This document shows, piece by piece, positions 6,981-25,290 of a stretch of DNA of 64,000 bases (position 1 is the first letter of the stretch; each line of letters opens with the position of its first letter). The position numbers were made by a program, and so were the translations under genes. Source of the DNA: Mycobacterium sp. HUMS_12744610 (GTDB lineage: Bacteria; Actinomycetota; Actinomycetes; Mycobacteriales; Mycobacteriaceae); the NCBI RefSeq assembly GCF_041206865.1, contig NZ_JBGEDP010000001.1, forward strand, positions 1,922,001-1,986,000. Direction: 5' to 3'. Under the pieces are notes generated by a model. The model saw only the letters and a list, made by a program, of their open reading frames with translations, made no database searches and was not told the origin of the DNA.

Positions 6981-7064
6981 GCGGGCGTGGCGAAATTGGC
7001 ATACGCACCGGCTTTAGGTGCCGGCGCTCGAGAGAGCGTGAGGGTTCGAGTCCCTCCGCCCGCA
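6981..7064 (+). tRNA. tRNA-Leu, anticodon UAG
   Basis: The acceptor strands GCGGGCG (6981-6987) and CGCCCGC (7057-7063) pair fully. The D-arm is present. The anticodon arm has stem CCGGC/GCCGG around loop TTTAGGT, with anticodon TAG at 7015-7017. There is a long class II variable arm and a T-arm containing GGTTCGAGTCC. CCA is not encoded beyond CC. The 3' end is the attachment site of the integrative element that follows. Confidence 0.95.
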
Positions 7065-7071
7065 CCGACGC
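7041..7071. repeat. attL core (31 bp)
   Basis: Identical to 25260-25290. It covers the T-arm and acceptor 3' strand of tRNA-Leu plus seven bases beyond the acceptor/discriminator. The integrated element therefore leaves a complete tRNA gene on the left. Identity stops at both edges (G against T before it, G against C after it). Confidence 0.92.
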
Positions 7072-7117: not shown

Positions 7118-8269
7118 CTAAGCCTCTGGCCGCCCCGTGGCCGCATTTTGGCCACAACTTGCGAGTAACTTCGGCGAGTCACAGTTATCTCCCGTGGAGT
7201 ACCGGGCGTGCAGGCTGACCGCGACGGCATCGAGGTCGTCGTCGAACAAATCCGCATACGTATCGAGGGTGATCTTGGCGGACTTGTGGCCCAGCATCCG
7301 TTGCAGTGCAAGCACGTTCACGCCGGCCGACACCGCCAGCGACGCGCACGTGTGCCGCAGGTCATGCGGCGTCACCTTCTGGACCTTCGCCCGTTTCACA
7401 GCCGCCTGAAACCAGCCCGTCGACGACTTCGGCCGCTGCAAATAGCCGCCGCCGCGGCCGGCGAAAACGAGATCGCCGGGTGCCTTGCCCTTGCACTGCT
7501 CCGCAAGCTCATTCAGCACGAATTCAGGCACCGGGACCGAGCGCGCCTGGCGTCCCTTCGTCGGGCCGACCGCGTGCCTGGTGCCGAGTTGCACGGCATT
7601 CTCCGAGACGTTCAGACGGCGCCGCAGGAACTCCACATCGGCCACCCGTAGGCCAATCGCCTCGCCCCACCGCAACCCGCAGTACGCCAGCAACAGGACC
7701 AATGCCCGGTACTCGCCCGCTTCGTCCGCCAGTCGGCGCACGTCATCAGCGGACAGGTAGACGTGTCGACGAGCCAGCTTGCGCGGCAGGTTCTCGATGC
7801 CTTTGCAGGGATTGGCGGCCAAGCGCTTCGCCTTCACGGCATCGGCCAAGATCCCGGACAGCACGCCGTGCGCGCGCAGCACCGTCGTCGCCCCTCCGCC
7901 GTCGCGGCCCATGGCGGCGATCCACGCCTCGATGCCCAGCACGTCGACATCGGCGACGGCTACCGATCCCCACCGTGGTTGCACATGCACTCGCCAGGCC
8001 GATTCGATCATCCGATAGTGAGATGGCGCGGTAGCCCGCTCTTTGCGCTCAAGCCAGCCTGGCGCCAATTCGCCAACCGGGATGCGACCAAGGGACGGCT
8101 TGACGTACTGGCCGGTGAGCTTCTCGACCTCGACGCTGTTAGCGAACGACTCGGCATCTCGCTTGGTTTTGAAACCGCGCTTCTGTGTCTCGCCGCGGTC
8201 GGGAGCGCGATAGCGTACGCGGTAAAGCGTTGCGCCACTGGCGGTTTGGTATTTGCTAATCGTTGCCAT
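7118..8269 (-). CDS. int: Tyrosine recombinase, element integrase
   Basis: Site-specific recombinase of 383 aa. It has an N-terminal arm-binding segment (YRVRYRAPDRGETQKRGF), a SAM-like core-binding domain, and the catalytic domain with Arg in YCGLRWGEAIGL, the HDLRH motif, LGHKSAKIT and the nucleophile Tyr in LDTYADLF. The 3' end lies about 45 bp from the attL core, the usual position for a tRNA-targeting integrase. ATG 8269 is chosen because homologues start shortly before this arm domain. It overlaps the end of the repressor gene by 14 bp, so the two are co-transcribed leftwards. Confidence 0.95.
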   Translation of the reverse strand: MATISKYQTASGATLYRVRYRAPDRGETQKRGFKTKRDAESFANSVEVEKLTGQYVKPSLGRIPVGELAPGWLERKERATAPSHYRMIESAWRVHVQPRWGSVAVADVDVLGIEAWIAAMGRDGGGATTVLRAHGVLSGILADAVKAKRLAANPCKGIENLPRKLARRHVYLSADDVRRLADEAGEYRALVLLLAYCGLRWGEAIGLRVADVEFLRRRLNVSENAVQLGTRHAVGPTKGRQARSVPVPEFVLNELAEQCKGKAPGDLVFAGRGGGYLQRPKSSTGWFQAAVKRAKVQKVTPHDLRHTCASLAVSAGVNVLALQRMLGHKSAKITLDTYADLFDDDLDAVAVSLHARYSTGDNCDSPKLLASCGQNAATGRPEA

Positions 8270-8969
8270 TGCCCAGGGCTTCCTCGAGTTCCGCACGAAG
8301 CTCACGCGATACCCGACCGCGCTTCTGCTGATTGGCGTCCGGCCCGGCGCGCCGGTCGCGCTCCTCGCTGAAGGTGCTCTGCCAGAGCCGGAACGACACG
8401 GCGGCCAGACGATCGCGGCTAATCCCGAGCCGCTGAGCTAGCCGATCCTCAGTCAAGCCAGACCGTTGGCGCGTGAGCGCCAGGTCTGCTGCTGCAACGT
8501 CCGGATCAAGGTAGCCGTCCACGATTGCCCTGGATAACGCGTGGCCTCCGATGCTCGTATGTACCTGGTGCACGCCGACTTCATCGGCGCCCAACAGCTC
8601 TGTAAGGTCGAGCGGCCACGGGCGTCCGTGACACACACCTGCAACTACCGCACCAAGCGGGTCGGGTCCGTCAGGCGTCAACACTATGTTGCCGTCAAAC
8701 TGCACCAACTCGGCCAACGTCACTGGACGGCCAACGGGGATTCCGCGCTCTTTTGCGTCGGCGTGCGCCTTCGACAACGCCAAGCTGACCGCGAGAGCGG
8801 TACCGAAGGTCAGCTCCCGCCGGCCGCGCTCGAAGTCGCCCACCTTCGAGGCAGTCCAGCGTAGGCCAACCTCGCGCGCATAACGCACGAACTGCTCTTG
8901 GGTGACACCGAGCCTCGACCGGATCGCCTGGCAGTTCCGGCCGATCACCACAGCGAGCGGCTCACGCAT
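8256..8969 (-). CDS. XRE-type HTH transcriptional regulator, probable lysogeny repressor
   Basis: Protein of 237 aa. An N-terminal helix-turn-helix lies at about residues 8-60 (IRSRLGVTQEQFVRYARE, with FERGRRELTFGTAL). A second HTH-like segment (LTEDRLAQRLGISRDRLAA) lies near residue 185. It is divergent from the excisionase operon and separated from it by two perfect palindromes, the arrangement of a phage immunity repressor. ATG 8969 is preferred over an earlier GTG-type start at 8990 because it precedes the HTH at normal distance. Co-transcription with int suggests it also controls integration. Confidence 0.8.
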   Translation of the reverse strand: MREPLAVVIGRNCQAIRSRLGVTQEQFVRYAREVGLRWTASKVGDFERGRRELTFGTALAVSLALSKAHADAKERGIPVGRPVTLAELVQFDGNIVLTPDGPDPLGAVVAGVCHGRPWPLDLTELLGADEVGVHQVHTSIGGHALSRAIVDGYLDPDVAAADLALTRQRSGLTEDRLAQRLGISRDRLAAVSFRLWQSTFSEERDRRAGPDANQQKRGRVSRELRAELEEALGNGND

Positions 8970-9058: not shown

Positions 9059-9083
9059 CGAACGATAGAGAGGACGGTAGCCG

Positions 9084-10713: not shown

Positions 10714-10871
10714 CCGCCGCGATTTATGGGACTAGAGCGATGCGGGATCTCGTACGCGAGGCGATTGAGTTCTGGATTGACGATGAGGCGCTGCGGCTGA
10801 CTCGGCTCGCCGAGGAATCCGAACGCGAGGTGCTGCACCGTATCGCCGGACGCGGCTGGTGTGTCGAGTGA
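10710..10871 (+). CDS. Small hypothetical protein (53 aa)
   Basis: The ATG at 10710 overlaps the DUF2742 stop (ATGA). The frame runs 53 codons (MTAAIYGTRAMRDLVREAIE and onwards) and ends at a TGA that overlaps the GTG of the next gene (GTGA). The double coupling and the amphipathic helical composition support a real gene. No family is recognised. Confidence 0.6.
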   Translation: MTAAIYGTRAMRDLVREAIEFWIDDEALRLTRLAEESEREVLHRIAGRGWCVE

Positions 10872-10960
10872 CCGACACCGACCGCTCCGACGAGCTGCGC
10901 GAGCTGTGGGCAGAGGACAACCCGGACGGCGCCGAGTTGCTCGACGACGTACAACAATTT

Positions 10961-12346
10961 GGCTCTATTGACATGAATGTGGGTGGCCCCTGGTGTGGTA
11001 TGGGAGTTCGAGGGTGACCGGTCCGCAAGCCAGGAGGATGAGAGCGAGGGCAGCTTGAGCGCTGTGGAAGCCGTAGGCACGGCGCACGAGGAGACGCACC
11101 TTGGTGTTGAGCCCTTCGTGGCGTCCGTTCGACAGGTTCCTCTCGATGGCGGCGTTGATGCCGGCGCGGTGTTTGCGGATGGTGCGCCCGGCCTTGACGA
11201 ACTCCGGGATGCGGCTGCGTTGGGCTCGCGAGCACCAACGATCCAGCAGTTCGGCGACGGTGGCGGCGTCGAGGTCGCCGGCGAAGACCTCGCGCAACGC
11301 TTCTTTGAGTTGATAGGCGCGCCAAAGGATCCCGCCGCTGCGTTTCATTTCCCGCAGGGTTTCGGCTTGGGTGTCGGTGAGGTCGGCGGGGTTCTTCAGC
11401 AGCGCCCAGCGCGCACCCTTGAACGTGCGAGCGATGCGCTGATCGGGCAGCGTGCGGGCGGCCTGCCACACCTGGCGGCGCACCGCATCGAGCGCGTCGG
11501 TGACGAGCTTGACAACGTGGAACGGGTCGACGCAGATCACCGCCGCCGGCACCCGCTGGCGCACCGCTTTGGCGTAGGCGGGTCCCATGTCCATCGACAC
11601 CGCTTCGATGGACGCACCTTCGTCGGGCAGTTCATCGAAGAAGGCGTCCAAGGTGTCGCTGTCCTTGCCGGGTTTGCCCCACACGATGGTGCCGCTGTCG
11701 TGGTCGGAGACCAGCGTCAAATACCGGTGGTGTTTGCACCAGGAGATCTCGTCGACGCCGATGTCGACCAGCCCGCACAGCCGGTTGGGGTCGAGCACGT
11801 CGGGGGCGAGGCGTTCGCAGATTGCGCCTACGGTGCGCCAGGCCACCCTGGCGAAGGTGCTGACGGTGGTTTTGTCGGTCTTGGTGACCAGCCAGGCCAC
11901 CAGGTCCTCGAAGTCGCGGGTGTGGCGGGAGCCGGGGCGGGCGAACGGCACCGCTTCGGCCAGCACACCATGTGTCGGGCAGCGCAGCCGCCTGCGCCGC
12001 AACAGGATCCGGCATATCCGCCCGGCGGTGTCCAGATGCCGCCACGACGAGTCCACCTCCCGGGTGTCATAGCGATGCCGGGTCGTAAACGAGCAGTGCG
12101 GGCAGCCAAGCCGGCGCCGGCGCAAGCTAACCGTGACGCGCAGCTCACCACCGTGCACAGCGGCCGCGCCGACGCGCACGCCAGGCAGATCGAGCAGGGA
12201 ATTGAGTAGGGTTGATGCGCGCACGGACGGCTCCAGGATCGATCGGGGTTAAGGCCATCGAACCTAGATCACCGTCCGTGCGCCCCGCTCACCATCCCCG
12301 CCGCCATACCACACGCTCCCTGATCCACATGAACGTCAGGAGAGCC
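10961..12346 (-). mobile_element. ISL3-family insertion sequence with 8-bp target duplication
   Basis: The element is 1386 bp. Its left end starts GGCTCTATTGACATGAATGT and the complement of its right end starts GGCTCTCCTGACGTTCATGT, imperfect inverted repeats beginning with the ISL3-type GGCTCT. The 8 bp AACAATTT occurs immediately outside both ends (10953-10960 and 12347-12354), the duplication length expected of ISL3. It holds one transposase gene. Confidence 0.93.
10965..12224 (-). CDS. ISL3-family transposase
   Basis: DDE transposase of 419 aa. The N-terminal zinc-finger region has the CPHC and CPTHG cysteine pairs. The ISL3 core follows (GVDEISWCKHHRYLTLV, SMDMGPAYAKAV, VDPFHVVKL), and the C-terminal motif NLSNGRHEGLNTKVRLL carries the catalytic glutamate. 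Length is normal for the family and no frameshift is seen, so the IS may be active. It is transcribed opposite to the gene it interrupts. Confidence 0.93.
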   Translation of the reverse strand: MRASTLLNSLLDLPGVRVGAAAVHGGELRVTVSLRRRRLGCPHCSFTTRHRYDTREVDSSWRHLDTAGRICRILLRRRRLRCPTHGVLAEAVPFARPGSRHTRDFEDLVAWLVTKTDKTTVSTFARVAWRTVGAICERLAPDVLDPNRLCGLVDIGVDEISWCKHHRYLTLVSDHDSGTIVWGKPGKDSDTLDAFFDELPDEGASIEAVSMDMGPAYAKAVRQRVPAAVICVDPFHVVKLVTDALDAVRRQVWQAARTLPDQRIARTFKGARWALLKNPADLTDTQAETLREMKRSGGILWRAYQLKEALREVFAGDLDAATVAELLDRWCSRAQRSRIPEFVKAGRTIRKHRAGINAAIERNLSNGRHEGLNTKVRLLVRRAYGFHSAQAALALILLACGPVTLELPYHTRGHPHSCQ

Positions 12347-13730
12347 AACAATTTGCGAGTGCTTTCTTGGCGCTGCCAAGCCCGCATCATCTGACGGTGC
12401 TGTGCCTGTGGAGTTTGCACACCTGGTGCGTCGGTGCGTTTTACGTGACCCCCAGGTTGGTCCTCGACTCTCCCGAGCCCGGTTCGGGAAAGACCCGCGT
12501 ACTGGAAGTGCTTGCGCTGCTGTGCTGCAACGCGAAGTTGACCTTATCGACGACCACGGCAGCCCTGTATCGGCGGATTGCAGCGGCCGGCGAGAGGCCG
12601 CCGACGATCTTGCAGGACGAGGCCGACGCGGTTTGGGGGCGCACAACCAACCCGCAAGCCGAGGACTTACGGGCGATCTTCAACGCCGGGTACAAGCGCG
12701 GCGCCACGGTAGACCGATGCGAGGGCGACTCCAAGAACATGCGCGTGGTTGAGTTCCCGGTTTTCGCCCCGGCCGTGTTGGCGGGTTTGGCCGGGAAGAT
12801 GCCGAAGACGATCATCGACCGGGCTGCCGCGGTCTTCCACATGCGACGCCGCGCGCCTGATGAGCACATTGCCGAATTTCGAGAGCGGGACGCCGCCGCT
12901 GCCGCTGCGCCGCTGCGCGACCGCATGGAGCGGTGGGCTGCCGCCAATTTCGACACTCTGGCGGCAGCGCGACCCGCCATGCCCGAGGGGGTGCGCGACC
13001 GCCCGGCCGAGTGCTGGGAGTCGCTGCTGGCGATTGCCGATGCGGCCGGCGATGGTTGGCCGGAACGCGCCCGCGCGGCCTGCCGTCACTTCGTGTTCGA
13101 TAGCGACCCTGACGAGCTCTCGTTCGGCGCCCGGCTGTTGCGCGACGTGCACACCGCCTTCGGCGACCGGGACCGCATGTTCTCGGCAGACATCGTGGCC
13201 GCACTGGTCACCGACGACGAGGCCGAATGGGCAGACCTCTGGGGCAAGCCGCTCGATCAGAAGCGTCTGGCAAAGGAGTTGAAGCGCTACGGGGTGCGGT
13301 CGAACACCATCCGCATCGGCGAAGGGCGCGCCAAGGGGTACCAGGTCGACGGCGACGACGGGCTGGGCCAAGCATGGCGGCGGTACCTACCCGGCGCACT
13401 TGTGCGTGACATCCGTGACCACCGTGACATTGCAGGTCAGCGCGTCACGGATAAATCCGGCGACCGTGACAGCGGTGCCATCCGTGACGCATCCGTGACA
13501 ACCGAAATGCCCTCTGAACAGGCGTTATTCGATGGCGTCACGGCTGTCACGGCTGTCACGCGCACCAATGGAAACTCGCCTACGCCAGCCACACCCGAAC
13601 AGAACGCCGCCTACCGAAGCGGCCTCTGCATCGACTGCCGCGAGCGGCCGCCGTCAGCGGGGCGCCCTCGCTGCAACGCCTGCCACCGCGCATATGTCCG
13701 CACCTCAGCAAACCCGTGAAGGAACTCCCG

Positions 13731-14039
13731 ATGAAACTCGTCCTCTCAGACAGGCCCGACAGTATCGACTACTTGAAGATTGCCGCGGCGTGGCGCATGG
13801 CCCGCGACACCGACCGCTCGGTGGTCGTCCATCGCGTGTGCTTCGAGTGCCCGGCGGTCGCGACCATTGCGCCCGCAGCGGCCGGTGGGGCCCACCGCAT
13901 CGCCGCGGAGCACGAGGGCTGGTGCCCGGTGCTCGCGGCCCACGGGGGGCGTGCCCTGACGGCGCGCGAGCGGCGGCGGCACCGGCGCTACATGGACGGC
14001 GAGCAGCTCGCTGACCCCGCAGGCGAGGCGCAGTCGTGA
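13731..14039 (+). CDS. Small hypothetical phage-type protein (102 aa)
   Basis: ATG 13731 follows a GAAGGAA ribosome-binding sequence 12 bp after the DUF3631 gene. The product has a paired-cysteine patch (RVCFECPAVA and EGWCPVLAAHGG) that could bind zinc, then an arginine-rich C-terminus. No family is recognised. Its stop overlaps the next GTG (GTGA), so it belongs to the same rightward operon. Confidence 0.65.
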   Translation: MKLVLSDRPDSIDYLKIAAAWRMARDTDRSVVVHRVCFECPAVATIAPAAAGGAHRIAAEHEGWCPVLAAHGGRALTARERRRHRRYMDGEQLADPAGEAQS

Positions 14040-14479
14040 GTGGCCGCCGGACCGCGGACGAGCGCACCCGGATCGCCGCTTCCGTTCAACGAATCGATAG
14101 CGTCGCGCTCAGCCTCGACGCGGCGCGGCTCGTCGTGCACTGGCTCGGCCAACTCGCCGAGATCACCCGCCAGCGCAACGGCTGCCCGCCTGAAGGTCTC
14201 GTCGAGTTCCAGCACGCAATCGCCGAGGAACTCGTGGCCGACTCGCGCCGACGCGAACAGGGCGGCTCGAGACCGCACGAGCTTGTAGGTTTCGAGCATG
14301 AGCAGCGATACATGGAACCTGCCGAAGCGGCAACAGCGCTTGGCGTTTCAGCCGATACGGTCCGCTGGCACTGCCGAAAAGGCAACCTCGATGGCCGCAA
14401 GTTCGGGCGCCAGGTGATGGTCACCGCGGCGTCGGTCGAGGCGCTGAAAGCGCGGCGCAGCGAGCAGAGAGGAGCCTAG
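14036..14479 (+). CDS. Small DNA-binding protein with C-terminal MerR/excisionase-type HTH
   Basis: Protein of 147 aa. The second half (MEPAEAATALGVSADTVRWH and on to RQVMVTAASVEALKAR) is a typical HTH_17 helix-turn-helix of excisionase or regulator type. The first half is helical and unassigned. The GTG start overlaps the preceding stop. It may regulate late genes of the element or act as a second recombination directionality factor. Confidence 0.7.
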   Translation: MSGRRTADERTRIAASVQRIDSVALSLDAARLVVHWLGQLAEITRQRNGCPPEGLVEFQHAIAEELVADSRRREQGGSRPHELVGFEHEQRYMEPAEAATALGVSADTVRWHCRKGNLDGRKFGRQVMVTAASVEALKARRSEQRGA

Positions 14480-14481
14480 AA

Positions 14482-15207
14482 GTGGCAGAGAAAGTGGTGG
14501 TCCCGCGCGCTGAAGTCGTTCGCCTGCTTGGCCTTCCGGCCGATGTGAATGAGGAGACGATGCAGCGTGAACTTGCTATTCAGCTCGCCGAAATCGAGGC
14601 TGCGAAAGAGGCTCGGCGGGTGTCGGCGGCCGAGCAGGCGGCCCGCGCCGAGGACCGGCGGATCGTGCTGGCCGCGGTGAACGCCGGCAAGTTCCCCCGC
14701 TCGCGCATCGAGTTCTGGACGGACGCGCTTCAGCGGGATCGCGAGAACGGCCGTGCCATCATCGCGTCGTTGGCGCCGGGACTACGGCCAGCCGAGCAGC
14801 TCGTCGTCGATGCCGAGGTTGAAGCGACACACCGCCGCGTGCTTGAGCGCTTGGGTGTCCGGGCGCCGCAGACAGTGGCGGCCAGCGACGGGACAACGAC
14901 GTACCAGCAGGCCGTGCGCAACGCAGACAAGTTCGGGCGCAGCTCTGGCGAGCACTTGCCCGATCCGTTCGTGGTTCCGGCCATCCCGCCGCCGGTGCGG
15001 ATCCGCACCGGCAAGCCGGCGTCCGAACTGACCGAGCGTGAGCGGGCGGACGCGATGCAGCGTCGCCTTGGACCCAGGTTCTACGCGGGCACGCAGCCGC
15101 CTCCGCAGGGCGACAAGTGGTTTCAGCCATCCCCCAACCAGCCCTACGTGTTCGACGAGGACTCGCAGCAGTGGCGCGAGAATCCGAACTACCGACCCAC
15201 CAACTAA
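14482..15207 (+). CDS. Phage-type protein, possible scaffold- or protease-tail-like (241 aa)
   Basis: GTG 14482 is preceded by AGAGAGGAG. The middle of the protein (VLAAVNAGKFPRSRIEFW, then ALQRDRENGRAIIASLAPG) resembles the C-terminal helical segment of Mu-I-like scaffold/protease proteins. The N-terminal half is a charged coiled-coil-like helix rich in Ala and Glu. The C-terminal part is proline-rich. No protease residues are visible, so a stand-alone scaffold or a capsid-remodelling protein is possible. The assignment is weak. Confidence 0.5.
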   Translation: MAEKVVVPRAEVVRLLGLPADVNEETMQRELAIQLAEIEAAKEARRVSAAEQAARAEDRRIVLAAVNAGKFPRSRIEFWTDALQRDRENGRAIIASLAPGLRPAEQLVVDAEVEATHRRVLERLGVRAPQTVAASDGTTTYQQAVRNADKFGRSSGEHLPDPFVVPAIPPPVRIRTGKPASELTERERADAMQRRLGPRFYAGTQPPPQGDKWFQPSPNQPYVFDEDSQQWRENPNYRPTN

Positions 15208-15219
15208 GGAGAGAGATAA

Positions 15220-15639
15220 ATGCTCGGAACGATGGCCGTCAACTTAGCCATGGGCGTGAGCGGAGAATGGCGGCCGGCGTACCGCGTGGTTGCCCCCTTG
15301 GTCATCGTCAAGGATCAGACCGGCAAGCTGCACCACGCCTACAAGGGCAGCCAGTTGGCGTGGCTCAACGACGAGCAGCGGGACCACTTCCTGCGCAAGG
15401 GATTGGTGGAAGAGCTCGACAGCGGCGACGCGCCGATCCTGCCGTCCAGCGACCAGATCGGCAACTGTGTCGCCCAGCTTTCAAGCCTTGGCGTGGACCC
15501 CAGGGCCGGGCGACCGACGGCTCGCAAGGCGCTCGAAGCCGCCGGCCATCGGTGGTCGAACGAAGTGATCGCCGAAGCGGTCAAGATCCGCCAGTTCAGC
15601 GCACCTCATGATGAGCGCGAGAGCTTCCCCATCGCGTGA
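15220..15639 (+). CDS. Hypothetical phage-type protein (139 aa)
   Basis: ATG 15220 has a good AAGGAGAG ribosome-binding site. The sequence contains HHAYKGSQLAWLNDEQRDHF and LRKGLVEEL, a segment I recall from small actinophage proteins, and a C-terminal helix (ARKALEAAGHRWSNEVIAEA). Function is unknown. It is 12 bp downstream of the previous gene and is probably co-transcribed. Confidence 0.6.
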   Translation: MLGTMAVNLAMGVSGEWRPAYRVVAPLVIVKDQTGKLHHAYKGSQLAWLNDEQRDHFLRKGLVEELDSGDAPILPSSDQIGNCVAQLSSLGVDPRAGRPTARKALEAAGHRWSNEVIAEAVKIRQFSAPHDERESFPIA

Positions 15640-15777
15640 GGTAGAGCAGGTTTCCCGCGCGGCTTTCCGTGGCGGCTTCCCGCGCGGGTAGGTGCCGGCC
15701 GGCGCCCACAGCCAAAGGTCAATTGGGTAGGCCCCCGGCGCGGACCGGCCGGCACCGCACACACAGAAAGGAGCCGC

Positions 15778-15966
15778 ATGGACGCGCAGACAGCGCAGCA
15801 GCGCTACATCGAGACGACGGCCCTGCAGGGTGCGCTGCAGGGCATGAGCGACGACGACCCCAGACGACGATTCCGCCACGACCCGCTGATGGCGTTGATC
15901 AACCAGGCCCACCGGGCGCGCACCGACCACGATGGCGGCATGAACTACATGTCAGTGCCGTTCTGA
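15778..15966 (+). CDS. Small hypothetical protein (62 aa)
   Basis: ATG 15778 follows a strong AAAGGAG ribosome-binding site with correct spacing. The product is charged (MDAQTAQQRYIETTALQGAL at the start). No family is recognised. It is the last clear rightward gene before a decayed region. Confidence 0.6.
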   Translation: MDAQTAQQRYIETTALQGALQGMSDDDPRRRFRHDPLMALINQAHRARTDHDGGMNYMSVPF

Positions 15967-16935
15967 TTTCGGCTCCGTGTGGGGAACTGGACCTACGCGG
16001 CGATACTCCGCGCGGGCTCGGAATCGAACTCCGGCCCCCGGCGTCGTCGGAGTATCGAAGCGCTGACCATGCGCGTTGGTCGTCCTCACACCGTGCGACG
16101 GGCGACCTCCAGCGGCTGCCATGGGTCGCCGGTCCTCCTACCCCCCCCCCGAAAAAATCAGGACCCAGGGGGGGTGCGCGACCGCCGCTCCGTCACGAAT
16201 TTTTTTACACAGGACCCAAAAAATCGGGGAACCTGCCCCCTCTCCAGAGGGAAATCCCCTGGTGAGAGCCCCTTTTTGGACATGCCTGCTCATGCCGCGT
16301 GCGGGGGGATTTCCCCCCGCGCCCGCTCATGCCGCGTGAGGCGATTTCCCTTCGGTGGCGCGCCGCTGTCCGAGCTGTCCCGGACAGGTCATTTCGCCTG
16401 GTCACTTGCCCGAAGGGAGTCGGTGACCTCAATCCGGCTTAGGCCATCGGCGAGGAGCCGGTCGGCGACCATCGTGGGGTTCGACAGGCCGAGCACCCGG
16501 TCGGTGTCCCGCGCGAAACCCGGCGGCGTTGGGAATCCGGGTTGAATCCAGTGTGGACTGGTCAAGGCGTTGGATGCGTCCGAAGGGGAGTCTTCGATTG
16601 GGGTACGTCTGGCGTACCTCATCGTCAAGGCGCTCGCTTCAAGCGCCCGAGCGCGGCGACGGCGACACTGTGCCCGCGCTGTCCGGGACAGTTGTAGCCG
16701 GCCGGGCGGCAGCCCTGGGGCACGTGCGCTGGGTCGCGCCATGTCGCTGCTGTCGATCGGCGTTCCACTCGCCGCCGTGATCATTGTCGCGGGCTGGACG
16801 CTGGCCCGGACCGAGCAGCTGGTGTTGCGCCACGCGCACGAGATGTGCGAGCTGTTCCGGGAAGGCGCGACGGTCGACCAGGTGAACCAGCGGGACGAGG
16901 CGGGAGGGCGAGCGCCAGCATCGGCGACGCTGCAG
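15967..16935. other. Decayed or non-coding stretch with homopolymers
   Basis: I see no convincing intact gene in this 0.97 kb. It contains a C10 run at 16141-16150, A/T-rich hexamers, and two copies of GCTCATGCCGCGTG (near 16289 and 16327), each followed by a GATTTCCC element. A Bro-N remnant lies on the minus strand (listed separately). A frame from ATG 16741 begins with a hydrophobic helix (MSLLSIGVPLAAVIIVAGW) but soon runs antisense through the next gene. Confidence 0.5.
16389..16550 (-). pseudogene. Bro-N antirepressor domain fragment
   Basis: The minus strand reads DRVLGLSNPTMVADRLLADG followed by LSRIEVTDSL before a stop at 16389. This matches the middle of the Bro-N antirepressor domain (VCRVLGLSNPxxxxxRL). 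Start and C-terminal half are missing. It is one of three Bro-N fragments in the element. Confidence 0.5.
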
Positions 16936-17190
16936 TCAGATACCGGCGAAATACTTCGAGACTGCGACTGTGCCGTCGAAGTAGTTCGCGTGGGTGACCT
17001 TCACGGTTTCCAGCGAGTCCGAACCGATCAATACGATCTCAATCGAGTCAGCCGCGGCCATGTGTGTGCGTTCTAGCCTGGCGTACTCGGCCATCGCGCC
17101 CTTGGCGTCGGTGCCGAATTCCTTCAAGTCGACCAGCTCGGCGCGGTTATGGTCGAACACGAGCAAGAAGTGCTTCAGCGATGCACTCAT
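16936..17190 (-). CDS. Small protein coupled to the alarmone synthetase gene, antitoxin candidate
   Basis: Protein of 84 aa starting MSASLKHFLLVFDHNRAELV, with a conserved-looking SIEIVLIGSDSLETVKVTH core and a C-terminal YFDGTVAVSKYF. Its ATG overlaps the stop of the RelA/SpoT-like gene (ATGA), so the two are translationally coupled. In known toxSAS-antiSAS pairs a small neutralising protein is encoded next to the synthetase, so an antitoxin role is a reasonable inference. Direct sequence evidence for that role is absent. Confidence 0.7.
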   Translation of the reverse strand: MSASLKHFLLVFDHNRAELVDLKEFGTDAKGAMAEYARLERTHMAAADSIEIVLIGSDSLETVKVTHANYFDGTVAVSKYFAGI

Positions 17191-17984
17191 CGACGTACTC
17201 CTTGCAGAAATGGTTGGGCAGCCTGTCTCAGTGTATATACCCGGTCCAAAAGCTCCGGCCCCACGGGTTGACCGTGTTCTTCAAGCGCCATCGCCTCTGA
17301 CACCGCCGCGAACCAGTCTCGCACCTGTGGCGGCCCTCCGCCAGCCTTGATATCTAGCCCGAACCGAGATGTGACGCTCTCGACCGTGTAGGCCCACTCG
17401 TGCTGGACCTCTGTGCGCAGCTGGACTTCGATCAGTCGGCTCTGGTAGCGGACAATTATGTGCACGGCGCGGTAACCGTCTGGTTTTGGCTGGTCAACGT
17501 AGTCCTTGGTCCGGACTGTGACGGTGTCGCCTCTGTACCGGGACTGGACACTTCGGACTTCATCCAGGCTTTTCAACACGGCGCGGCAGCCGCCGATGTC
17601 GGCCATGCGGCCAAGATTCATGCCGGGTTCACGACGCAACTTGTCGATGATCGTGGGTATGCGCTTGAGCCGTTGTGACACTTCGATTTGAGAGCAGCCC
17701 ATGGTCCCGACGCGGGACCGCAAGCCCATCGTTGCGGCACCAAGGGGACGAGCATGTGCTGCGCGCCAGGCTTCCAACGTATCCAGCGCTTCGGAGATCT
17801 GCTCAGCAGTGATCTCCATCGGCGCGGCGATTGTGGCCAGGTTCCCGCTCACTCGCAATTGGCGCAAGACGTTGCCCACGCGGTTCACCGCAGAAACGCT
17901 CGGTACGGAATTAACTGCCACGTCGGGCAACTTACCGCCCGACCCAGCCGCAATCCTTATGCAGGCACGCGGGTGCGCGGGCAC
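17187..17984 (-). CDS. Stand-alone RelA/SpoT-domain nucleotide pyrophosphokinase, toxSAS-like
   Basis: Protein of 265 aa (244 aa if GTG 17921 is used). It contains only a synthetase domain: WRAAHARPL, QRLKRIPTIIDKLRREPGMN, RMADIGGCRAV (Asp129), DYVDQPKPDGYRAVH (G-loop) and IEVQLRTEVQHEWA (Glu186). All expected catalytic positions are intact and there is no HD hydrolase or regulatory domain. This layout fits the toxic small alarmone synthetases (PhRel/FaRel/CapRel group), which use ATP to pyrophosphorylate nucleotides or the tRNA CCA end and act in phage defence. A partner gene follows immediately. The start is uncertain because the extreme N-terminus is poorly constrained. Confidence 0.85.
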   Translation of the reverse strand: MPAHPRACIRIAAGSGGKLPDVAVNSVPSVSAVNRVGNVLRQLRVSGNLATIAAPMEITAEQISEALDTLEAWRAAHARPLGAATMGLRSRVGTMGCSQIEVSQRLKRIPTIIDKLRREPGMNLGRMADIGGCRAVLKSLDEVRSVQSRYRGDTVTVRTKDYVDQPKPDGYRAVHIIVRYQSRLIEVQLRTEVQHEWAYTVESVTSRFGLDIKAGGGPPQVRDWFAAVSEAMALEEHGQPVGPELLDRVYTLRQAAQPFLQGVRR

Positions 17985-18474
17985 TTGGGGCCGGCGGCAT
18001 CGTGGCGACGAGGCACCGCGCGGTGATCACCGGGAGCGTGACATTCGCCTGAAATAAGTTTCGCGGGAATGTCACACCCGACCTCGCGAAGGCCACGTCC
18101 GTGCACCCCATGTGCGACGAGCTTGTGCAACGCACAAGGAACATGCATGGCGCGGTCAGGATGGGCGCCCTGGTCACAATCGTCGACCCCCGGGCCCCGG
18201 CAAAGCCTCAGGTCAGCGCCGGTGGGCTTTGGCCATGGCAGCCGGACACCGCTGCGCCCCGCTCGCGTGCGCCGCGGCTGCTAGTGGTGCGGGTCTAGCC
18301 GCGACCAACACCCTGGGGATAGCCCCACCGAAACGGCCTCGCCGGGTTGGCGTAGCGTGTCCGCCGGCAGGCCGACTGTCCCGTCGTGTGCATGTCGCAC
18401 ACGTCACGGCCTGCAATGATTGGCCCTGAGCTGTGGAAATATTGCGAGTACGTCAACACGTTGTTATGTCCATT

Positions 18475-18550
18475 GCGTGCATACTGCAAACGCACGCATA
18501 CTGGGGTCGTTAACGTGCATACTGCACAGACACACGCATGCCGGGGTCGT
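18475..18550. repeat. Two tandem 36-38 bp iteron-like repeats upstream of the HTH gene
   Basis: Copies at 18475-18510 and 18513-18550 both begin CGTGCATACTGCA after one base and end with GGGGTCGT, with a GCATACTG/GCATGCCG core between. They lie in the roughly 540-bp intergenic region between the leftward synthetase operon and the rightward HTH gene. They could be operators for the HTH protein or replication iterons. Nothing else is evident in the rest of 17985-18593. Confidence 0.6.
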
Positions 18551-18593
18551 GTACACGAGACTGCGCGTCCCCCGTAGTGGTTAGGAGAAGGAA

Positions 18594-18938
18594 ATGATGT
18601 CGCTGCTTGCAGTCGACATCGGCAGCGTCGAGGCGGCCGAGGGGACGCGGGTCAAGAGCCTGGAAACCCTTCACGAGGCTTTGACGTATGCCGTGAGGGT
18701 CGACCTCGACCGAGACGACTTCCATAAGCTCTTTGTCCTTGCCGTTCGAGTGTTGGAGCTCGATCAGGACGCGACCGCCCGGATAGTCAAGGCTAGCCGG
18801 CCGACGATTAGTCGTTGGATCTCTGGCCGCGCGGTTCCTCATCGCGTGGGTCGCTCGTCGGTGTTCCGGGAGCTTCGCAAGGTTGCTGCTGACAAGCTGA
18901 AGCAGCATTCTGCGCTGGGAGCAGCAGCCCCCGCGTAA
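18594..18938 (+). CDS. Helix-turn-helix DNA-binding protein (114 aa)
   Basis: AGGAGAAGGA precedes ATG 18594 (a second ATG at 18597 follows directly). The C-terminal half is a clear HTH (QDATARIVKASRPTISRWIS followed by GRAVPHRVGRSSVF). The N-terminal half is helical. It sits behind two tandem repeats that may be its operators and 51 bp ahead of a GNAT-like gene. It is probably the autoregulator of that pair. Confidence 0.75.
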   Translation: MMSLLAVDIGSVEAAEGTRVKSLETLHEALTYAVRVDLDRDDFHKLFVLAVRVLELDQDATARIVKASRPTISRWISGRAVPHRVGRSSVFRELRKVAADKLKQHSALGAAAPA

Positions 18939-18989
18939 AAACGCGCCGCCTTCATCAGGCCCCGTAGTCGTTGGCTATTGTCATGCAGC

Positions 18990-19646
18990 ATGTCGGTCGT
19001 CATTTCCCATGTACGCCCCGAGGAGGCTGGGGGCGCGTACGAATGGCACCGCGGATTCGCAGCTTCGAATGACCACCTCTTTCCTCGGACGCGCGAACAT
19101 TACGCGGAGCTGGCCGAGAACTACCAAGCGTTCGCGGCACGCGAAGACGGCGATTACCTAGGGCTCTGTTACTACGCGCAGGACGAGCAGAGTACGGAAT
19201 GGGAAGTCGGCGGCCTTATGGTTGCCGCTAACCAGCGAGGACGCCGGTTAGGGATGACGCTAATGGCCGTCACCCTCGGAAATCTGCTGATCGACGTGAA
19301 CCCCTTGGAGGCAGTGGAAGGCGAAGCGCCGCAATGGATTATCAGCCACGTGATCAAAGGAAACGATGCTCCGCGCGGCATCATTGTTGATCGACTGAAA
19401 TTTGCTCACCGCAAGCCGGTCAAGATCCCCTCAGAAGTGCTGCCTGGCCTCAGAACCCAAGAGGATGGCATGGTTCATGGTGACGAATTTGAGATGACCG
19501 TTCCGGCGACACTTATTGCTCTTGCCGAATGGTGCGATGGGTGGACAGGGCAGCTGGGGGACGGCACGCCAGCCGAAATCGAACTCAGGGAAATGCTGAC
19601 GCTCCGCGACTGGGCGGAAGCATTTCGGGAGATGGCCAGCGCCTAG
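18990..19646 (+). CDS. GNAT-like acetyltransferase domain protein
   Basis: Protein of 218 aa. The segment EWEVGGLMVAANQRGRRLGM fits GNAT motif A, the acetyl-CoA pyrophosphate loop (V-x-x-x-x-RGxRxG). The upstream region (SHVRPEEAGGAYEWHRGFAA) fits the first GNAT strand and helix. Substrate is unknown. It follows an HTH gene on the same strand, an arrangement shared by some GNAT toxin-antitoxin pairs, but the protein is longer than typical GNAT toxins. The ATG at 18990 lacks a strong ribosome-binding site; a TTG at 18978 is the alternative. Confidence 0.6.
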   Translation: MSVVISHVRPEEAGGAYEWHRGFAASNDHLFPRTREHYAELAENYQAFAAREDGDYLGLCYYAQDEQSTEWEVGGLMVAANQRGRRLGMTLMAVTLGNLLIDVNPLEAVEGEAPQWIISHVIKGNDAPRGIIVDRLKFAHRKPVKIPSEVLPGLRTQEDGMVHGDEFEMTVPATLIALAEWCDGWTGQLGDGTPAEIELREMLTLRDWAEAFREMASA

Positions 19647-20028
19647 GATCTCGCTGGCCTCCTGCCCGCTGGGGTCCAATATGCCCGGCGTGTTGAGGTC
19701 GAGGTAGATGTAGGCGACCCTGAGCGCGTTGTCCGCACCGCCTTTGCGACCGTATCGAGCTAGCGGCCATGCCAGGCCAGATAGCTCTAGACCGCAGACG
19801 AGCAGCCCGGGCAACCGCGGATCTGCCGGTCGACTTCGCGCCAGCCGGTGTCGTCCTCTTCGAGGCTGGCGATGACGAGCCGCCTGGCCGTCCTCGCCGG
19901 GCCTGGGGCTTCCAAGTCGGTGGCGCGGCCTGGGGTTGCCGGTGGGACGCTGGCACCGACGCCGACTCAAGCCCCCCCGAGTAGCGAACCTGCTCCAGTG
20001 ATGGCGCGGTCGAGGATCTGGAAGTGGG
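19647..20028. other. Stretch without a convincing gene
   Basis: Frames here are short. None shows a start with a ribosome-binding site and protein-like composition. A minus-strand piece reading RRLVIASLEEDDTGWREVD hints at a decayed gene, but it has no recognisable partner sequence. Confidence 0.4.
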
Positions 20029-20768
20029 TTAGGCCGCGGACCGTGTCGCTTTACAGGAAGGGTCGGCCTCGGCGGCCGCCGGTTGGGACTGTGACTTCTT
20101 CTCCACGATCACGCGCTCAGCTGCCCGGGCCGAGGTTTCCCCGGCATCGAGCTTTGCCATCTGCTCGCGCGCCAGCTCAGCCAGTTCGGGGTCATCTGAT
20201 CGCGTCTCCTTGTCGACCAGCTTCAGCCGGCCGTAGGTGCCGCGGGAGGTGCCGAGGGCTTTTGCCACCATGTCGTCGGTGCGCGTCTGGGAAAGGTTCG
20301 TCCCCGTGGGGACGAACCTTTCGCCGAGTCCACGGCCACCCAGCGACGCAGCCGCCCGCTGGCGTTCCTTGGCCTTCGGGCGTTCCAGCTCCTCAAGCCT
20401 GCGCCCCAGCGCCAGCAGCTCGGAGCGGGTGAAGTCCTTGCGGCAGGTGACCGATCGCGCGGGCCGGTGCGGCGGATCGACGGGAGGACTTCGCCGGTGA
20501 TCCAGCGCCGGAACGTGACCGCTTCGGGCTTGTCCGAGCGGATGACGACCTCGTACATGGCCGCCTCAGACACGAGCACCGTTTGGCGCATCTGCCCGCG
20601 AGCATTCTCAACATCCGCCCGGCGGATGTTGAGGTCGTCGAGCCGGTCAACGACGTTTCCGACGTTGGCGATGTCGAGCACCCGGCACAGGTCGGCCAGG
20701 ACGAACCACGGCTCGTTGTCGATGAGGACCACGCGCACCGGCTGGTCGGTGTAGGTGAACAGTTCGAC
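20029..20768 (-). pseudogene. Frameshifted Bro-N antirepressor fused to a ParB-like C-terminal region
   Basis: At 20463-20768 the minus strand encodes a nearly complete Bro-N domain (EPWFVLADLCRVLDIANVGN through FRRWITGEVLPSIRRTG). Immediately afterwards a different frame continues as RKDFTRSELLALGRRLEELE and on to MVAKALGTSRGTYGRLKLVD, which looks like the middle and C-terminal part of a ParB-like DNA-binding protein. The frame changes at about 20455. The simplest reading is a single gene with an indel, or a fusion left by recombination. No good start was found for the Bro-N part. Confidence 0.55.
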
Positions 20769-20966
20769 GGCGCCATCTCCTCGGCGGAATCCCTCGATGG
20801 GGTGGGTCTGATCTACCCCATCGGGCGAGCCGGTCCCGGACAGTCGCGGCGCGTCTCGCTGAGGAAGGGTCCGAGCTGGTCCCGGACCCGCGCCCGTCGC
20901 GGAGTCGTGGGACCAGAAGGGTGTCGACCAGCTCGACACCCCTGGCGAGCGCCTTGACGAGGGGCT

Positions 20967-21173
20967 GAGCCAGAGTTACACCCTTCAGACGGCCGGCGCC
21001 CCGCAATCAGCGACAGGTTGGACGATGCCCTGTGCCGGGTGCTGGACTTGTCGAACCCGTCCGTCTATGCCGACCGCCTGCGCTCGATCGGTGAGGTAAC
21101 ACGGTGTTACCCCATCTCCGACAGCCTCGGCCGCACCCAGCAGGCGACCATCGTCTCCGAGCCCGGCATGTAA
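20967..21173 (+). pseudogene. Second Bro-N fragment, opposite strand, ending at an in-frame stop
   Basis: The plus strand reads DALCRVLDLSNPSVYADRLR and then SLGRTQQATIVSEPGM followed by TAA. In intact Bro-N domains the last part continues as SEPGLYxLI, so the TAA stands where a tyrosine codon (TAC) is expected. The N-terminal strand is not recognisable. It faces the minus-strand Bro-N gene. Confidence 0.5.
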
Positions 21174-21207
21174 ACCCGCGTCCGCGGGCGCCGGAAGGGC
21201 GTCGGTG

Positions 21208-21432
21208 TCATGATTCCCCCTGCGAGGCACAGTAGTTCGCGTTGTACGCGGGCCCGAACGGGTCGCACGCGTAGCTCCCGCTCGACGGCGACTCGTTGTA
21301 GCAGATCGTCGGGTCGAACAGCGGCGAGGACGGGTCGCACCACTGGACCGGGCCCGCATGCGCGGCTGGCATCGGGACGACGCCGATCAGTGCTGCGGCT
21401 GCGGCGAGACCGCAGAGCGCTCGTGTCAACAT
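21208..21432 (-). CDS. Small secreted protein with four cysteines
   Basis: Protein of 74 aa with a Sec signal peptide (MLTRALCGLAAAAALIGVVP, cleavage after AHA) and a mature part of about 48 residues with four cysteines, probably forming two disulfides. An AGGAGG site lies 5 bp before ATG 21432. Function is unknown. It follows a similar exported protein gene and is part of the leftward cargo operon. Confidence 0.75.
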   Translation of the reverse strand: MLTRALCGLAAAAALIGVVPMPAAHAGPVQWCDPSSPLFDPTICYNESPSSGSYACDPFGPAYNANYCASQGES

Positions 21433-21441
21433 GGCAACCTC

Positions 21442-21795
21442 CTATTTCTGCGCGCCGCCGCAGCCACCGGGCGGCGCGGGCTGTGGGATCGGACCGTTGT
21501 CGGGATCGACGACGCACGACATTCCCAGCCGTGTCGGCTCGCTCGAGCCCGGCATGAAGAACGGCATCGAGGAGCCCGCGTAGGACAGCTGGTGCCAGTA
21601 GGAACCGTCGGGGTAGTGCTCCCCGTCGCACCATCCCTCGAAGATGGAGCCGCCCCCGCCGCCGGCGCACTGGCCGGCCGCCTGGTTGGGGATGTGCGGG
21701 TCGTCGGCGCGGGCCGGGCCGGCGCTCAGCGTGGCGAGCGCGGCCAGCGTGGCGACGCCGACGAGCACCTTGGTTCGGTGGGCCATGGACAGCAT
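21442..21795 (-). CDS. Secreted hypothetical protein with four cysteines
   Basis: Protein of 117 aa. A signal peptide with hydrophobic core KVLVGVATLAALATLSA ends at ARA|DDP. The mature region is Gly/Pro-rich with four cysteines (QCAGG, GWCDG, SCVVD, GGCGG). An AGGAGG site precedes ATG 21795. It is 9 bp upstream of the second secreted protein gene, so the two form an operon. No family with a known role is recognised. Confidence 0.75.
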   Translation of the reverse strand: MLSMAHRTKVLVGVATLAALATLSAGPARADDPHIPNQAAGQCAGGGGGSIFEGWCDGEHYPDGSYWHQLSYAGSSMPFFMPGSSEPTRLGMSCVVDPDNGPIPQPAPPGGCGGAQK

Positions 21796-21805
21796 CGTGG
21801 ACCTC

Positions 21806-21990
21806 CTATGCTCCTAATCCGATGTCCGACGAGGTGATTGCCCGCAGGACCGGGTTCGCCGCGGCCTCGGAGATGCGGCGGATCTCCGGTCCCGAGACTG
21901 CGGTGTAGCGCTGGGGTCGTGGCGACCGACGTGTGCCTTGGACGGCGCGCAGGTGACCGGTCCCGGTGTGCACGGCGGCTGGCGTAGGCC
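21806..21990 (-). pseudogene. C-terminal remnant of a tyrosine recombinase
   Basis: The minus strand shows LRAVQ, HTSVATT and QRYTAVSGPEIRRISEAA spread over two frames. They align with the LRAVQQLLGHASVLTTERYT segment and the following residues of the intact recombinase at 23449-24258. The catalytic Tyr is in QRYTAV. The rest of the gene is gone and a frameshift separates the two pieces, so this is a decayed third integrase. Confidence 0.55.
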
Positions 21991-22021
21991 ATCGGCAAGA
22001 AGTCTTCTGGCTCAACGCTTT

Positions 22022-22726
22022 TCATCCTTCGTACTGCGGGCAGTAGGCGGCTAGGGCGACGTTGACCATGCCGGAGGTTTGCCACGGTGTGAAGGTGGGG
22101 TCGTTGCGTTGTACTTCGTCGATGATCTGGGCGCGGGTCATGCCGCGGGCGAAGCCGCCGCAGATGCTGCGCGCGCCTGCTTCGGCGACGTCCCAGTTGA
22201 TGATGTGCAGCTCGGGGATGCCGGCGACGCCTTCCCGGAAGATCCGGTCCGCGTCCGCGGGCGGCGGTGCGAGCGTGGGGGCGGGTTGCACGGTCACGGT
22301 CGGCGTGGATGGCGGTGGCGCGGTCACTGTCACCGTCGGCGGCGCGGCGGCGGCCGGGAGGTCCGCATGGATACTGTCCGACGGCGGCACGCTGCTGACA
22401 GATGGAAGCGCTGCAGGCGGGATCGTCTCGACGGGGCTCGTTTCTGTGGGCGGCAACGTCGAAAGAGCAGGCGAGCGCGGTGTTATCCACACGTGCCATG
22501 CGGCGCTCAGGACGATGACCAGCGTCACCGCGGCGATGGCGAACAACGGCCGCGCGGAGTCGACCATCGCCAAGCGCCAAGAAGCTCCCGGCTCGTCGCC
22601 GTCATCGTCGAGCGACCACGCGACAGGCTGAGCGGCCACGGTCGGCGCCGGGACGATCTCGGTCGCGTCACTCCCGCTGGCAACGGCGGGTTGCCCGGGG
22701 GGTTCGTCGCCAGGATCAGGGATCAC
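22022..22726 (-). CDS. Membrane-anchored DUF732 protein
   Basis: Protein of 234 aa. A cytoplasmic N-terminus of about 55 residues is followed by one transmembrane helix (ARPLFAIAAVTLVIVLSAA), a Pro/Thr/Ser-rich linker, and a C-terminal DUF732 domain (ICGGFARGMTRAQIIDEVQR to YCPQ, with two cysteines). DUF732 proteins are exported mycobacterial proteins of unknown role. The ATG overlaps the stop of the upstream gene (22723-22726). Confidence 0.8.
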   Translation of the reverse strand: MIPDPGDEPPGQPAVASGSDATEIVPAPTVAAQPVAWSLDDDGDEPGASWRLAMVDSARPLFAIAAVTLVIVLSAAWHVWITPRSPALSTLPPTETSPVETIPPAALPSVSSVPPSDSIHADLPAAAAPPTVTVTAPPPSTPTVTVQPAPTLAPPPADADRIFREGVAGIPELHIINWDVAEAGARSICGGFARGMTRAQIIDEVQRNDPTFTPWQTSGMVNVALAAYCPQYEG

Positions 22727-23256
22727 CGCTCGGCCCCTTTGATTCTCGGCCTATCGACCAGCGCTCGGACAGCAGCATCTGTGGGCGCGGCGCCCGCAAT
22801 CAGCAGTTGGGCGACAGCCTGTACCGCCGGCCAATGCTCGTCGAGTTCGCGAAAGCCCCAAAACTGTTCACGAGTCGCGACGAGCTCCGCGAACCGCTCG
22901 CCTAGCAGCGCTTGATCAGCCTCGCAGGCGTGTCGATAGTCTTCGCCGTCCCCGCCGGCATTGCGCAGAAACGCCGCGGCCACGTAGTCCTCAAAGGAAG
23001 CTCCGTCTTCGTCTTCGCCATCCAGCGAGGGCAGTGGCCATTGCACGCGTGCTTCTGCCCATGGACCCGCGTAGGTCACAAACGCGGTATCGCACGGTTT
23101 GCAGCGAAAGCCGGTGTGCCCAAGGTATGCCGCGCTCGGCTCAATCGTGATCGAGCGGAGTTCGCCGCCGCCCCGCATCGCCGCCGCAACCGCATGCCCG
23201 GCCTCGTGATAGGCGGTCAGCTCCCGCTCGGGAGGCACATCATCATCGGGCGCCAT
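22723..23256 (-). CDS. M41-like HExxH zinc peptidase domain protein
   Basis: Protein of 177 aa. The sequence AYHEAGHAVAAAMRGGGELR contains the zinc-binding HEAGH motif in FtsH/M41 context, and a later GEDYRHACEAD segment could supply a third ligand. No AAA domain and no membrane helix are present, so it is a stand-alone protease-like domain often found on actinobacterial phages and islands. AAGGAGG precedes ATG 23256. Confidence 0.7.
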   Translation of the reverse strand: MAPDDDVPPERELTAYHEAGHAVAAAMRGGGELRSITIEPSAAYLGHTGFRCKPCDTAFVTYAGPWAEARVQWPLPSLDGEDEDGASFEDYVAAAFLRNAGGDGEDYRHACEADQALLGERFAELVATREQFWGFRELDEHWPAVQAVAQLLIAGAAPTDAAVRALVDRPRIKGAER

Positions 23257-23452
23257 CGTCGGTCCTCCTTCCCGTCTGCAGTGTGCGCCTCGGCGCGGAC
23301 AGCTGTCCGCGATATGCCCGCCCGCGGCCGTCGGCGACTGTGGTCACGGCCCCGTCGTCAAGGAGATCGTCGAGCGCGGTGTCGATGTGCGGGCGCACGT
23401 CGGAGCGGAGCGCCCGGCTCAGGTGGGTGCGTGGACGCAGCGCCGCGGTCAC
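23243..23452 (-). CDS. Small winged-helix-like protein (69 aa)
   Basis: The GTG at 23452 overlaps the integrase stop (GTGA). The frame encodes VTAALRPRTHLSRALRSDVR followed by HIDTALDDLLDDGAVTTV, a helix-strand pattern like a winged helix. Its end overlaps the next gene by 14 bp. It could be a directionality or regulatory protein for the adjacent recombinase. Confidence 0.5.
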   Translation of the reverse strand: MTAALRPRTHLSRALRSDVRPHIDTALDDLLDDGAVTTVADGRGRAYRGQLSAPRRTLQTGRRTDDGAR

Positions 23453-24258
23453 TGGGCGCCCCACGCGCACGCGGCGGCCGAACGGATCTCGTCGTCGTCG
23501 ACCGCGGTGTATCGCTCCGTGGTCAGCACCGAGGCGTGGCCGAGAAGCTGCTGCACCGCCCGAAGATTGCGGCTGCCGCGGTACGCGCGCGTCGCGAAGC
23601 GGTGCCGCAACGTGTGCATCGTCCATCCCGACGGCAGCGCCTCGGTGACCAGATGCCCCACCTCCCGGGCCTTCAGATGCCCGTCGCCTTTGCGGGACGG
23701 GAACACCCAGCCCTCGGCAGCGCGGATCGCGGCCGCCAGGTCGGCGCTGATCGGCACCACGCGGTCTTTGCCGCCTTTGCCGTGCACCAGCAGGGAAGGC
23801 CCGTCGAGCAGATCATCGGAGTGCACCGCGGCGACCTCGGCGCGACGCAAGCCGGCCTCCCCGGCCAACCGGATCATCAGCCGTTCCCGTAACCCGGCGC
23901 CGGCCAGGGCGCTGCTCCACACCGCATCCGGGGCCGGTCTGGGCTGCGGCTTGGGGAGCCGGACCCGGGGCAGCTCGGCGCCGATATCGAGGGGCACACG
24001 CCCCGTTTTCGCCGCCCATCTGAAGAACCCGACCGCGGCTTCTCGGTGCGACTTGAGGGTGGGCGGCGCCCATGAGCGGCTTCCGAACCACGCGAGCAGC
24101 CGCTCGGCGGTGACCTGCTCTGGCGCGCCCTGCAGCCCGCGGGCGATGAGTTCGAGTTGCTCGCGGCGAAGCCTGAGGGTGGCCGGGCGCTGTCCGGCGC
24201 CGGCCAGGGCGCGCAGGTAATCCTCGATGAGGGGCTGCCACGTAGCTGGGGCGCTCAC
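23449..24258 (-). CDS. Second tyrosine recombinase
   Basis: Protein of 269 aa. It has an N-terminal core-binding domain (WQPLIEDYLRALAGAG), a catalytic Arg in GEAGLRRAEVAAV, the HTLRHRFAT box, LGHASVLTT and the nucleophile Tyr in ERYTAV. It is shorter than the left-end integrase and lacks an arm-binding domain, closer to XerC/D-like or resolving recombinases. GTG 24258 overlaps the previous stop. It lies 1 kb from attR and may belong to a second element or to dimer resolution. Confidence 0.9.
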   Translation of the reverse strand: MSAPATWQPLIEDYLRALAGAGQRPATLRLRREQLELIARGLQGAPEQVTAERLLAWFGSRSWAPPTLKSHREAAVGFFRWAAKTGRVPLDIGAELPRVRLPKPQPRPAPDAVWSSALAGAGLRERLMIRLAGEAGLRRAEVAAVHSDDLLDGPSLLVHGKGGKDRVVPISADLAAAIRAAEGWVFPSRKGDGHLKAREVGHLVTEALPSGWTMHTLRHRFATRAYRGSRNLRAVQQLLGHASVLTTERYTAVDDDEIRSAAACAWGAQ

Positions 24259-25057: not shown

Positions 25058-25149
25058 TGGTGTCGTCCTTCGTTTGGGAGGGGGAATTGGTTTGAGATGA
25101 GGTGATCCCACAAACGAAGGAGGGGAGCGACACCTAGCAGCGCGGCCGT

Positions 25150-25207
25150 GGCCGCTCCGTGGCCGCAATTTGGCCGCAGTTACAGATAACTGACGTGAAC
25201 TACAGTG
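25150..25207. repeat. Copy of the integrase 3' end next to attR
   Basis: GGCCGCTCCGTGGCCGCAAT (from 25150) and the following bases align with 7128-7189, which is the integrase 3' end next to attL (GGCCGCCCCGTGGCCGCATT), over about 58-62 bp with scattered differences. The minus-strand translation ends CGQIAATERPRPRC, against CGQNAATGRPEA in the integrase. It may be an arm-type binding site or an integrase remnant. Confidence 0.6.
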
Positions 25208-25259
25208 ATGTATTTCGGCAGTTAAAGCGGTTTTCAGGCCCCTGACCGGGTAGCTGAAT

Positions 25260-25290
25260 AGGGTTCGAGTCCCTCCGCCCGCACCGACGC
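25260..25290. repeat. attR core (31 bp)
   Basis: Perfect copy of 7041-7071. The tRNA upstream portion is absent here, so this is the right boundary created by integration. About 30 bp further on ends the PE_PGRS gene of the chromosome. Confidence 0.92.

Follow-up and report, generated by a model that had tools for sequence, protein, structure and literature searches.

Among the described relatives of the gene pair considered here are two kinds of toxSAS toxin-antitoxin system, namely CapRel and the gp29-gp30 pair of the mycobacteriophage Phrann. In CapRel-SJ46, which is a fused protein, inhibition is described as being released by phage proteins (PMC9712102, PMC11578894), and models of split CapRel place the antitoxin at the pyrophosphate-donor site, where the toxin is inhibited (PMC11782079). 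Fusion is the rule for CapRel, with Actinobacteria as the exception, according to Zhang et al. 2022 (PMC9712102), whose study also contains an alignment of the unfused CapRel and ATcapRel of M. terramassiliense. The CapRel of 'Mycobacterium tuberculosis AB308' is reported among tRNA-pyrophosphorylating enzymes (PMC12691689), and a review counts M. tuberculosis CapRel as one of five toxSAS toxins neutralised by adjacent antitoxins (PMC7591505). Phrann gp29/gp30 is described as defending against phages, Tweety included (PMC9262239), and in a survey gp29-gp30 was enriched in Actinobacteria (PMC10482375). Here, we analysed a stretch of 64,000 nucleotides (the window) from Mycobacterium sp. HUMS_12744610 (contig NZ_JBGEDP010000001.1, positions 1,922,001 to 1,986,000; genome of 6.4 Mb in three contigs), in which a RelA/SpoT synthetase gene lies upstream of a gene for an 84-aa protein. 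This pair is very probably an unfused CapRel:ATcapRel toxin-antitoxin system on an integrated mobile element, with a toxin predicted to pyrophosphorylate tRNA and a partner whose predicted block of the toxin's ATP site would last until relieved, likely by a phage protein.

Both open reading frames (ORFs), together with the ATGA overlap that couples them, lie where a sequence-only reading of the window had placed them (Table 1). The synthetase matched PF04607 RelA_SpoT (E 1.5e-16) alone, no hydrolase domain being above the cut-off in the Pfam scan. In profile searches it corresponded to the N-terminal part of PDC-S33 (E 1.5e-59) and of phrog_4773 (E 9.3e-50), two profiles that fused CapRel-SJ46 matches from end to end. 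Its closest solved relatives by sequence were the CapRel entries 9erv and 7ztb, and the same two entries came top when the structure model of the synthetase (mean predicted local distance difference test score 90.8) was used in a fold search (E 1.7e-14 and 6.1e-14). R79, R116, and Y155 of CapRel-SJ46 have their equivalents in R105, R134, and Y171, and among 38 other relatives the first two columns each hold R in 37 and the third holds Y in all 38, the exceptions being gaps. The KPDGYRAVH loop was found, and Asp129, Tyr171, and Glu186 were invariant in the 26 rows of toxin alignment A2 (D100, Y142, and E157 in its numbering; loci L014, L039, L034, and L035 left out). The earlier description of a stand-alone synthetase that has Asp129, KPDGYRAVH, and Glu186 and lacks a hydrolase domain was thus borne out, and on alignment the catalytic residues are intact. 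The homology of the synthetases of mycobacterial relatives starts in the vicinity of a GTG at 17921; a protein initiated at this codon would have 244 aa, and we are unsure whether translation starts there or at 17984. Just one other RelA_SpoT match was found in the genome, within an 820-codon open frame that we take to be the housekeeping Rel.

The 84-aa protein matched the C-terminal antitoxin domain of CapRel by profile (PDC-S33, phrog_4773), and PDC-S33 was matched by all 28 antitoxin relatives scanned. The match of the two proteins to opposite ends of PDC-S33 and phrog_4773 supports the reading of the pair as CapRel. The recognition of a toxSAS-antiSAS module by the sequence-only reading was right. 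The pair is a real, intact, and conserved toxSAS system and an unexceptional representative of a family already described.

The two genes are almost always found together. Antitoxin-bearing loci number 43; two of them, L001 and L002, represent the window, and comparisons with relatives exclude both. The antitoxin pattern search gave 29 loci, 25 of them in genome contigs and the other 4 in viral ones. In 27 of the 29, the antitoxin is immediately preceded by a toxin frame on its own strand; L034 has only a piece of a toxin, at a contig end, and L035 has an orphan antitoxin, with no toxin within the 5-kb locus. The lone antitoxin gene of L035 (L035:1808-2053, Propionibacteriaceae) adjoins an integrase-like frame. 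Antitoxin alignment A1 comprises the window and, of the 29 pattern-found loci, all but L014 and L039 (28 rows in total), and both A1 and A2 exclude family-search and phage loci. A survey of the family detected the antitoxin in 11 of 301 genomes, our own included, with a toxin match beside it in 10 of the 11, in L005 as a short frame; L007 has a stop inside the antitoxin match and no toxin. The partner is therefore seldom without a synthetase gene, standing alone in 1 of 29 pattern-found and 1 of 11 family-search loci, and in no locus with both genes does the antitoxin lie inside the ORF of the toxin. Among 41 closer genomes, the toxin was detected at E 1e-20 in just 2, our own included, and the pair is therefore a patchy accessory. 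No DNA match was found in phage records, and no hit of the toxin patterns was confirmed in viral contigs; the SJ46 patterns gave six copies in viral contigs, each 100% identical. Separately, the antitoxins of a linear Vibrio parahaemolyticus plasmid (L060:86-346) and of an incomplete Mycobacteriaceae genome (G241, locus L004) are near-identical by eye, reflecting either recent transfer or contamination.

From the named relatives, we infer that the synthetase would be toxic on its own, pyrophosphorylating tRNA ends and stopping translation, that the 84-aa partner would neutralise it by blocking its ATP or pyrophosphate-donor site, and that upon infection a phage protein would likely relieve the block. 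Phage defence by the window pair is plausible. A perfect 31-bp repeat at a tRNA-Leu gene, together with a tyrosine integrase just inside one end, confirms the proposal of an integrative element and makes the pair cargo of this 18.2-kb element (7041-25290), which also carries phage-like genes. Genes for a helix-turn-helix protein, a head-protease-like protein, and a head-connector-like protein (14036-15639) occur in the same order beside the M. terramassiliense pair (L015), and the pair therefore travels with phage-like neighbours. The main rival on its purpose is that a real toxin-antitoxin pair serves retention of the element (addiction) and not phage defence. It fits the position of the pair on an att-bounded element and the integrase-like genes also seen at L016, L022, and L035, and the literature searched contained no test of whether an unfused mycobacterial CapRel defends. 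We hold addiction to be unlikely, while granting it a substantial share of the probability; against it, the tested phage-borne relatives, CapRel-SJ46 and Phrann gp29/gp30, are described as acting in defence (PMC9712102, PMC9262239).

The subfamily of the pair was examined in a tree of 37 rows, which omits L005 (short toxin frame) as well as L015 and L040 (same toxins as L014 and L039). Seven PhRel-like rows including Phrann formed a group with support of 100/100, apart from the rows that include the window and SJ46, so that the synthetase is placed with CapRel and not with PhRel. The window synthetase was placed beside L014 of M. interjectum, which has its toxin in common with L015; CapRel-SJ46 is a long branch whose exact place is unsure, and PhRel2, FaRel, and FaRel2 are not in the tree. 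Among the PhRel-like rows is a pair of Corynebacterium phage IME1320_01 (L042:2163-3213) annotated as a GTP pyrophosphokinase and a hypothetical protein. The synthetase also scored 200 bits on PDC-S33, compared with 82 for Phrann gp29. On the other hand, the 84-aa protein matched phrog_22117, the family of Phrann gp30, better (E 2.1e-7) than phrog_4773 of fused CapRel (E 0.0023), and gp30 carries HSRYF. The possibility that the pair is a PhRel:ATphRel system, which would work much alike, is accordingly kept in view but appears improbable in the light of the synthetase.

Two overlapping frames would likewise be left by a recent frameshift in a fused CapRel gene, a form that does exist, and no working two-gene system would then remain. 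The split is, however, kept in the relatives found, and the antitoxin gene has a ribosome-binding site of its own, seven bases from its ATG; the conserved split and the separate site rule such a frameshift out. A stop lies in the antitoxin frame 93 bases upstream of the ATG. The ratio of nonsynonymous to synonymous substitution rates (dN/dS) was 0.035-0.189 for the antitoxin gene and 0.081-0.177 for the synthetase gene, each in eight comparisons made with mycobacterial or viral loci only and with several dS values saturated. These low values indicate that purifying selection acts on both genes, and because they are low in both, the ORF pair is not due to chance; they too stand against a broken fusion, whose probability we put at next to nothing. 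A scan for promoters and terminators, limited to the sigma-70 consensus, found none.

Equally negligible is the probability that the 84-aa protein founds an antitoxin family of its own with no relation to known antiSAS, as the sequence-only reading had suggested should it neutralise the toxin. Pfam, NCBIfam, and Foldseek (at E <0.001) gave no match, and a sequence comparison with solved structures gave only five weak designed-repeat-protein matches (best E 0.07). The PDC-S33, phrog_4773, and phrog_22117 profiles, however, tie the protein to the antitoxin domain of CapRel and to the gp30 family and rule the proposal out. When its model was aligned with structures, ATfaRel2 and the CapRel antitoxin domain ranked first, although with modest Z, and an 88% identical protein comes from M. 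terramassiliense, whose unfused pair with ATcapRel is already aligned in print (PMC9712102). The partner is thus related to known antitoxins.

In the predicted antitoxin, H67-A-N-Y70-F71 aligns with the YXXY motif (352-355) of CapRel-SJ46. H, Y, and F occupy the motif columns in each of the 41 relatives aligned, among them L015 as the unfused reference, in a biased sample that was found with the window's own proteins as seed and that takes in the near-duplicates L014/L015, L039/L040, and L009-L011 and the broken L007. Apart from SJ46, four fused proteins carry YPNYF (E. coli), YPNYF (Aliarcobacter), FPNYF (Sinorhizobium), and HSHYF (Acetobacter). In Bradyrhizobium, the second of two annotated frames reads YPNYF; this is plasmid p195_1 (L057:412-1655), on which the CapRel-like match runs over two annotated hypothetical proteins. 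A Vibrio plasmid antitoxin, which just 85 bases precede in its record, reads HGHYF. These six came from five records among the 40 listed of 99 SJ46-matching plasmid records, and from records matching the window antitoxin (n=2, one of them examined under its own match). A rule by which HXXY marks unfused and YXXY marks fused proteins was rejected, given the fused HSHYF of Acetobacter and the variation among fused proteins. By these alignments, H is general in the sampled unfused branch, yet it is no clean mark of the unfused state. A text search for HXXY together with antitoxin found no paper in the collection searched; the published alignment takes in M. terramassiliense (PMC9712102), and the motif residue is thus not claimed as previously unseen. 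It is possible, although we consider it rather doubtful, that in stand-alone CapRel and PhRel antitoxins an HXXYF lock replaces YXXY and that, in a free protein without the fused linker or anchor, a phage protein pulls the whole sensor off the enzyme with no bending of a hinge.

The features of the pair and of the element are collected in Table 1. The element holds, in addition, an ISL3-family transposase gene (10965-12224, PF01610 E 2.2e-71) on the strand opposite to its neighbours, a gene for a DUF3631 protein (12367-13719, E 6.7e-57) whose zinc-ribbon-like end matches phrog_19644 and which is likely a replication-type gene of the element, an antirepressor-like phage gene encoding a Bro-N domain protein (20223-20939, E 8.7e-20), and, near the other end, a second tyrosine-recombinase gene (23449-24468, PF00589 E 4.6e-21). 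A PE_PGRS-like gene, recognised by eye, lies at 25322-27244 and suggests a slow-growing mycobacterium; with 6.4 Mb, the genome does not belong to the tuberculosis complex, whose genomes have about 4.4 Mb.

Table 1 Features of the predicted CapRel:ATcapRel pair and of the element that carries it (window positions)
Feature	Position	Strand	Remarks
Predicted toxin (CapRel toxSYNTH), RelA/SpoT synthetase	17187..17984	-	265 aa, GTG start
Predicted antitoxin (ATcapRel)	16936..17190	-	84 aa, ATG start; motif H67-A-N-Y70-F71
ATGA overlap of synthetase and antitoxin genes	17187..17190	-	also in L013-L017 and L020
AAGGAG, ribosome-binding site of antitoxin gene	17198..17203	-	same place in L013, L014, L015, L017, and L020
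Left att copy, 31-bp repeat, tRNA-Leu 3' end	7041..7071	+	tRNA-Leu 6981-7066
Right att copy, 31-bp repeat	25260..25290	+	perfect repeat of left copy
Tyrosine integrase, just inside one end	7118..8305	-	PF00589 E 1.7e-24
Head-protease-like phage gene	14482..15207	+	phrog_3894 E 3.8e-8; 34% identity to L015 frame
Head-tail-connector-like gene	15220..15639	+	phrog_2322 E 2.8e-9; 48% identity to L015 frame

These results remove a candidate new antitoxin family and assign the pair to unfused CapRel, which is how this defence protein, well studied as a fusion, usually occurs in Actinobacteria. If the pair defends, it would offer a handle on the trigger of unfused CapRel and on whether HXXYF takes the place of YXXY as the lock.

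Among the named systems, FaRel2:ATfaRel2 (8pu3) belongs to another toxSAS subfamily; its antitoxin is reported to be circularly permuted and to carry 51-YXXY-54 (PMC11782079). PhRel:ATphRel of Phrann resembles the window pair in having two genes, the toxin first and a small antitoxin downstream, and gp30 is a homologue of the window antitoxin with the H..YF residues in common, although the PDC-S33 profile reached no match with gp30. The contrast with a membrane-protein partner that the sequence-only reading drew from Phrann is not borne out, because the Phrann antitoxin is the small gp30, encoded directly after gp29. Unlike the window synthetase, gp29 lies in the PhRel-like tree group and has a far lower PDC-S33 score. 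The window pair matches both ends of the profiles of CapRel-SJ46 (Salmonella phage SJ46; 7ztb, 9erv) and keeps its catalytic residues, whereas SJ46 is a single ORF with YXXY and the window has two genes and HXXYF; sensing of a capsid protein or Gp54 is described for SJ46 only (PMC9712102, PMC11578894). The nearest counterpart is the pair of M. terramassiliense AB308 (L015), which, judging from the strain name, is probably the source of the published AB308 CapRel. Its synthetase is identical to that of the window at 205 of 238 positions (86%) and its antitoxin at 74 of 84 (88%), and it shares the ATGA overlap, the ribosome-binding site, HANYF, and phage-like neighbours on the other strand, so that ordinary sequence divergence is the only difference found between the two.
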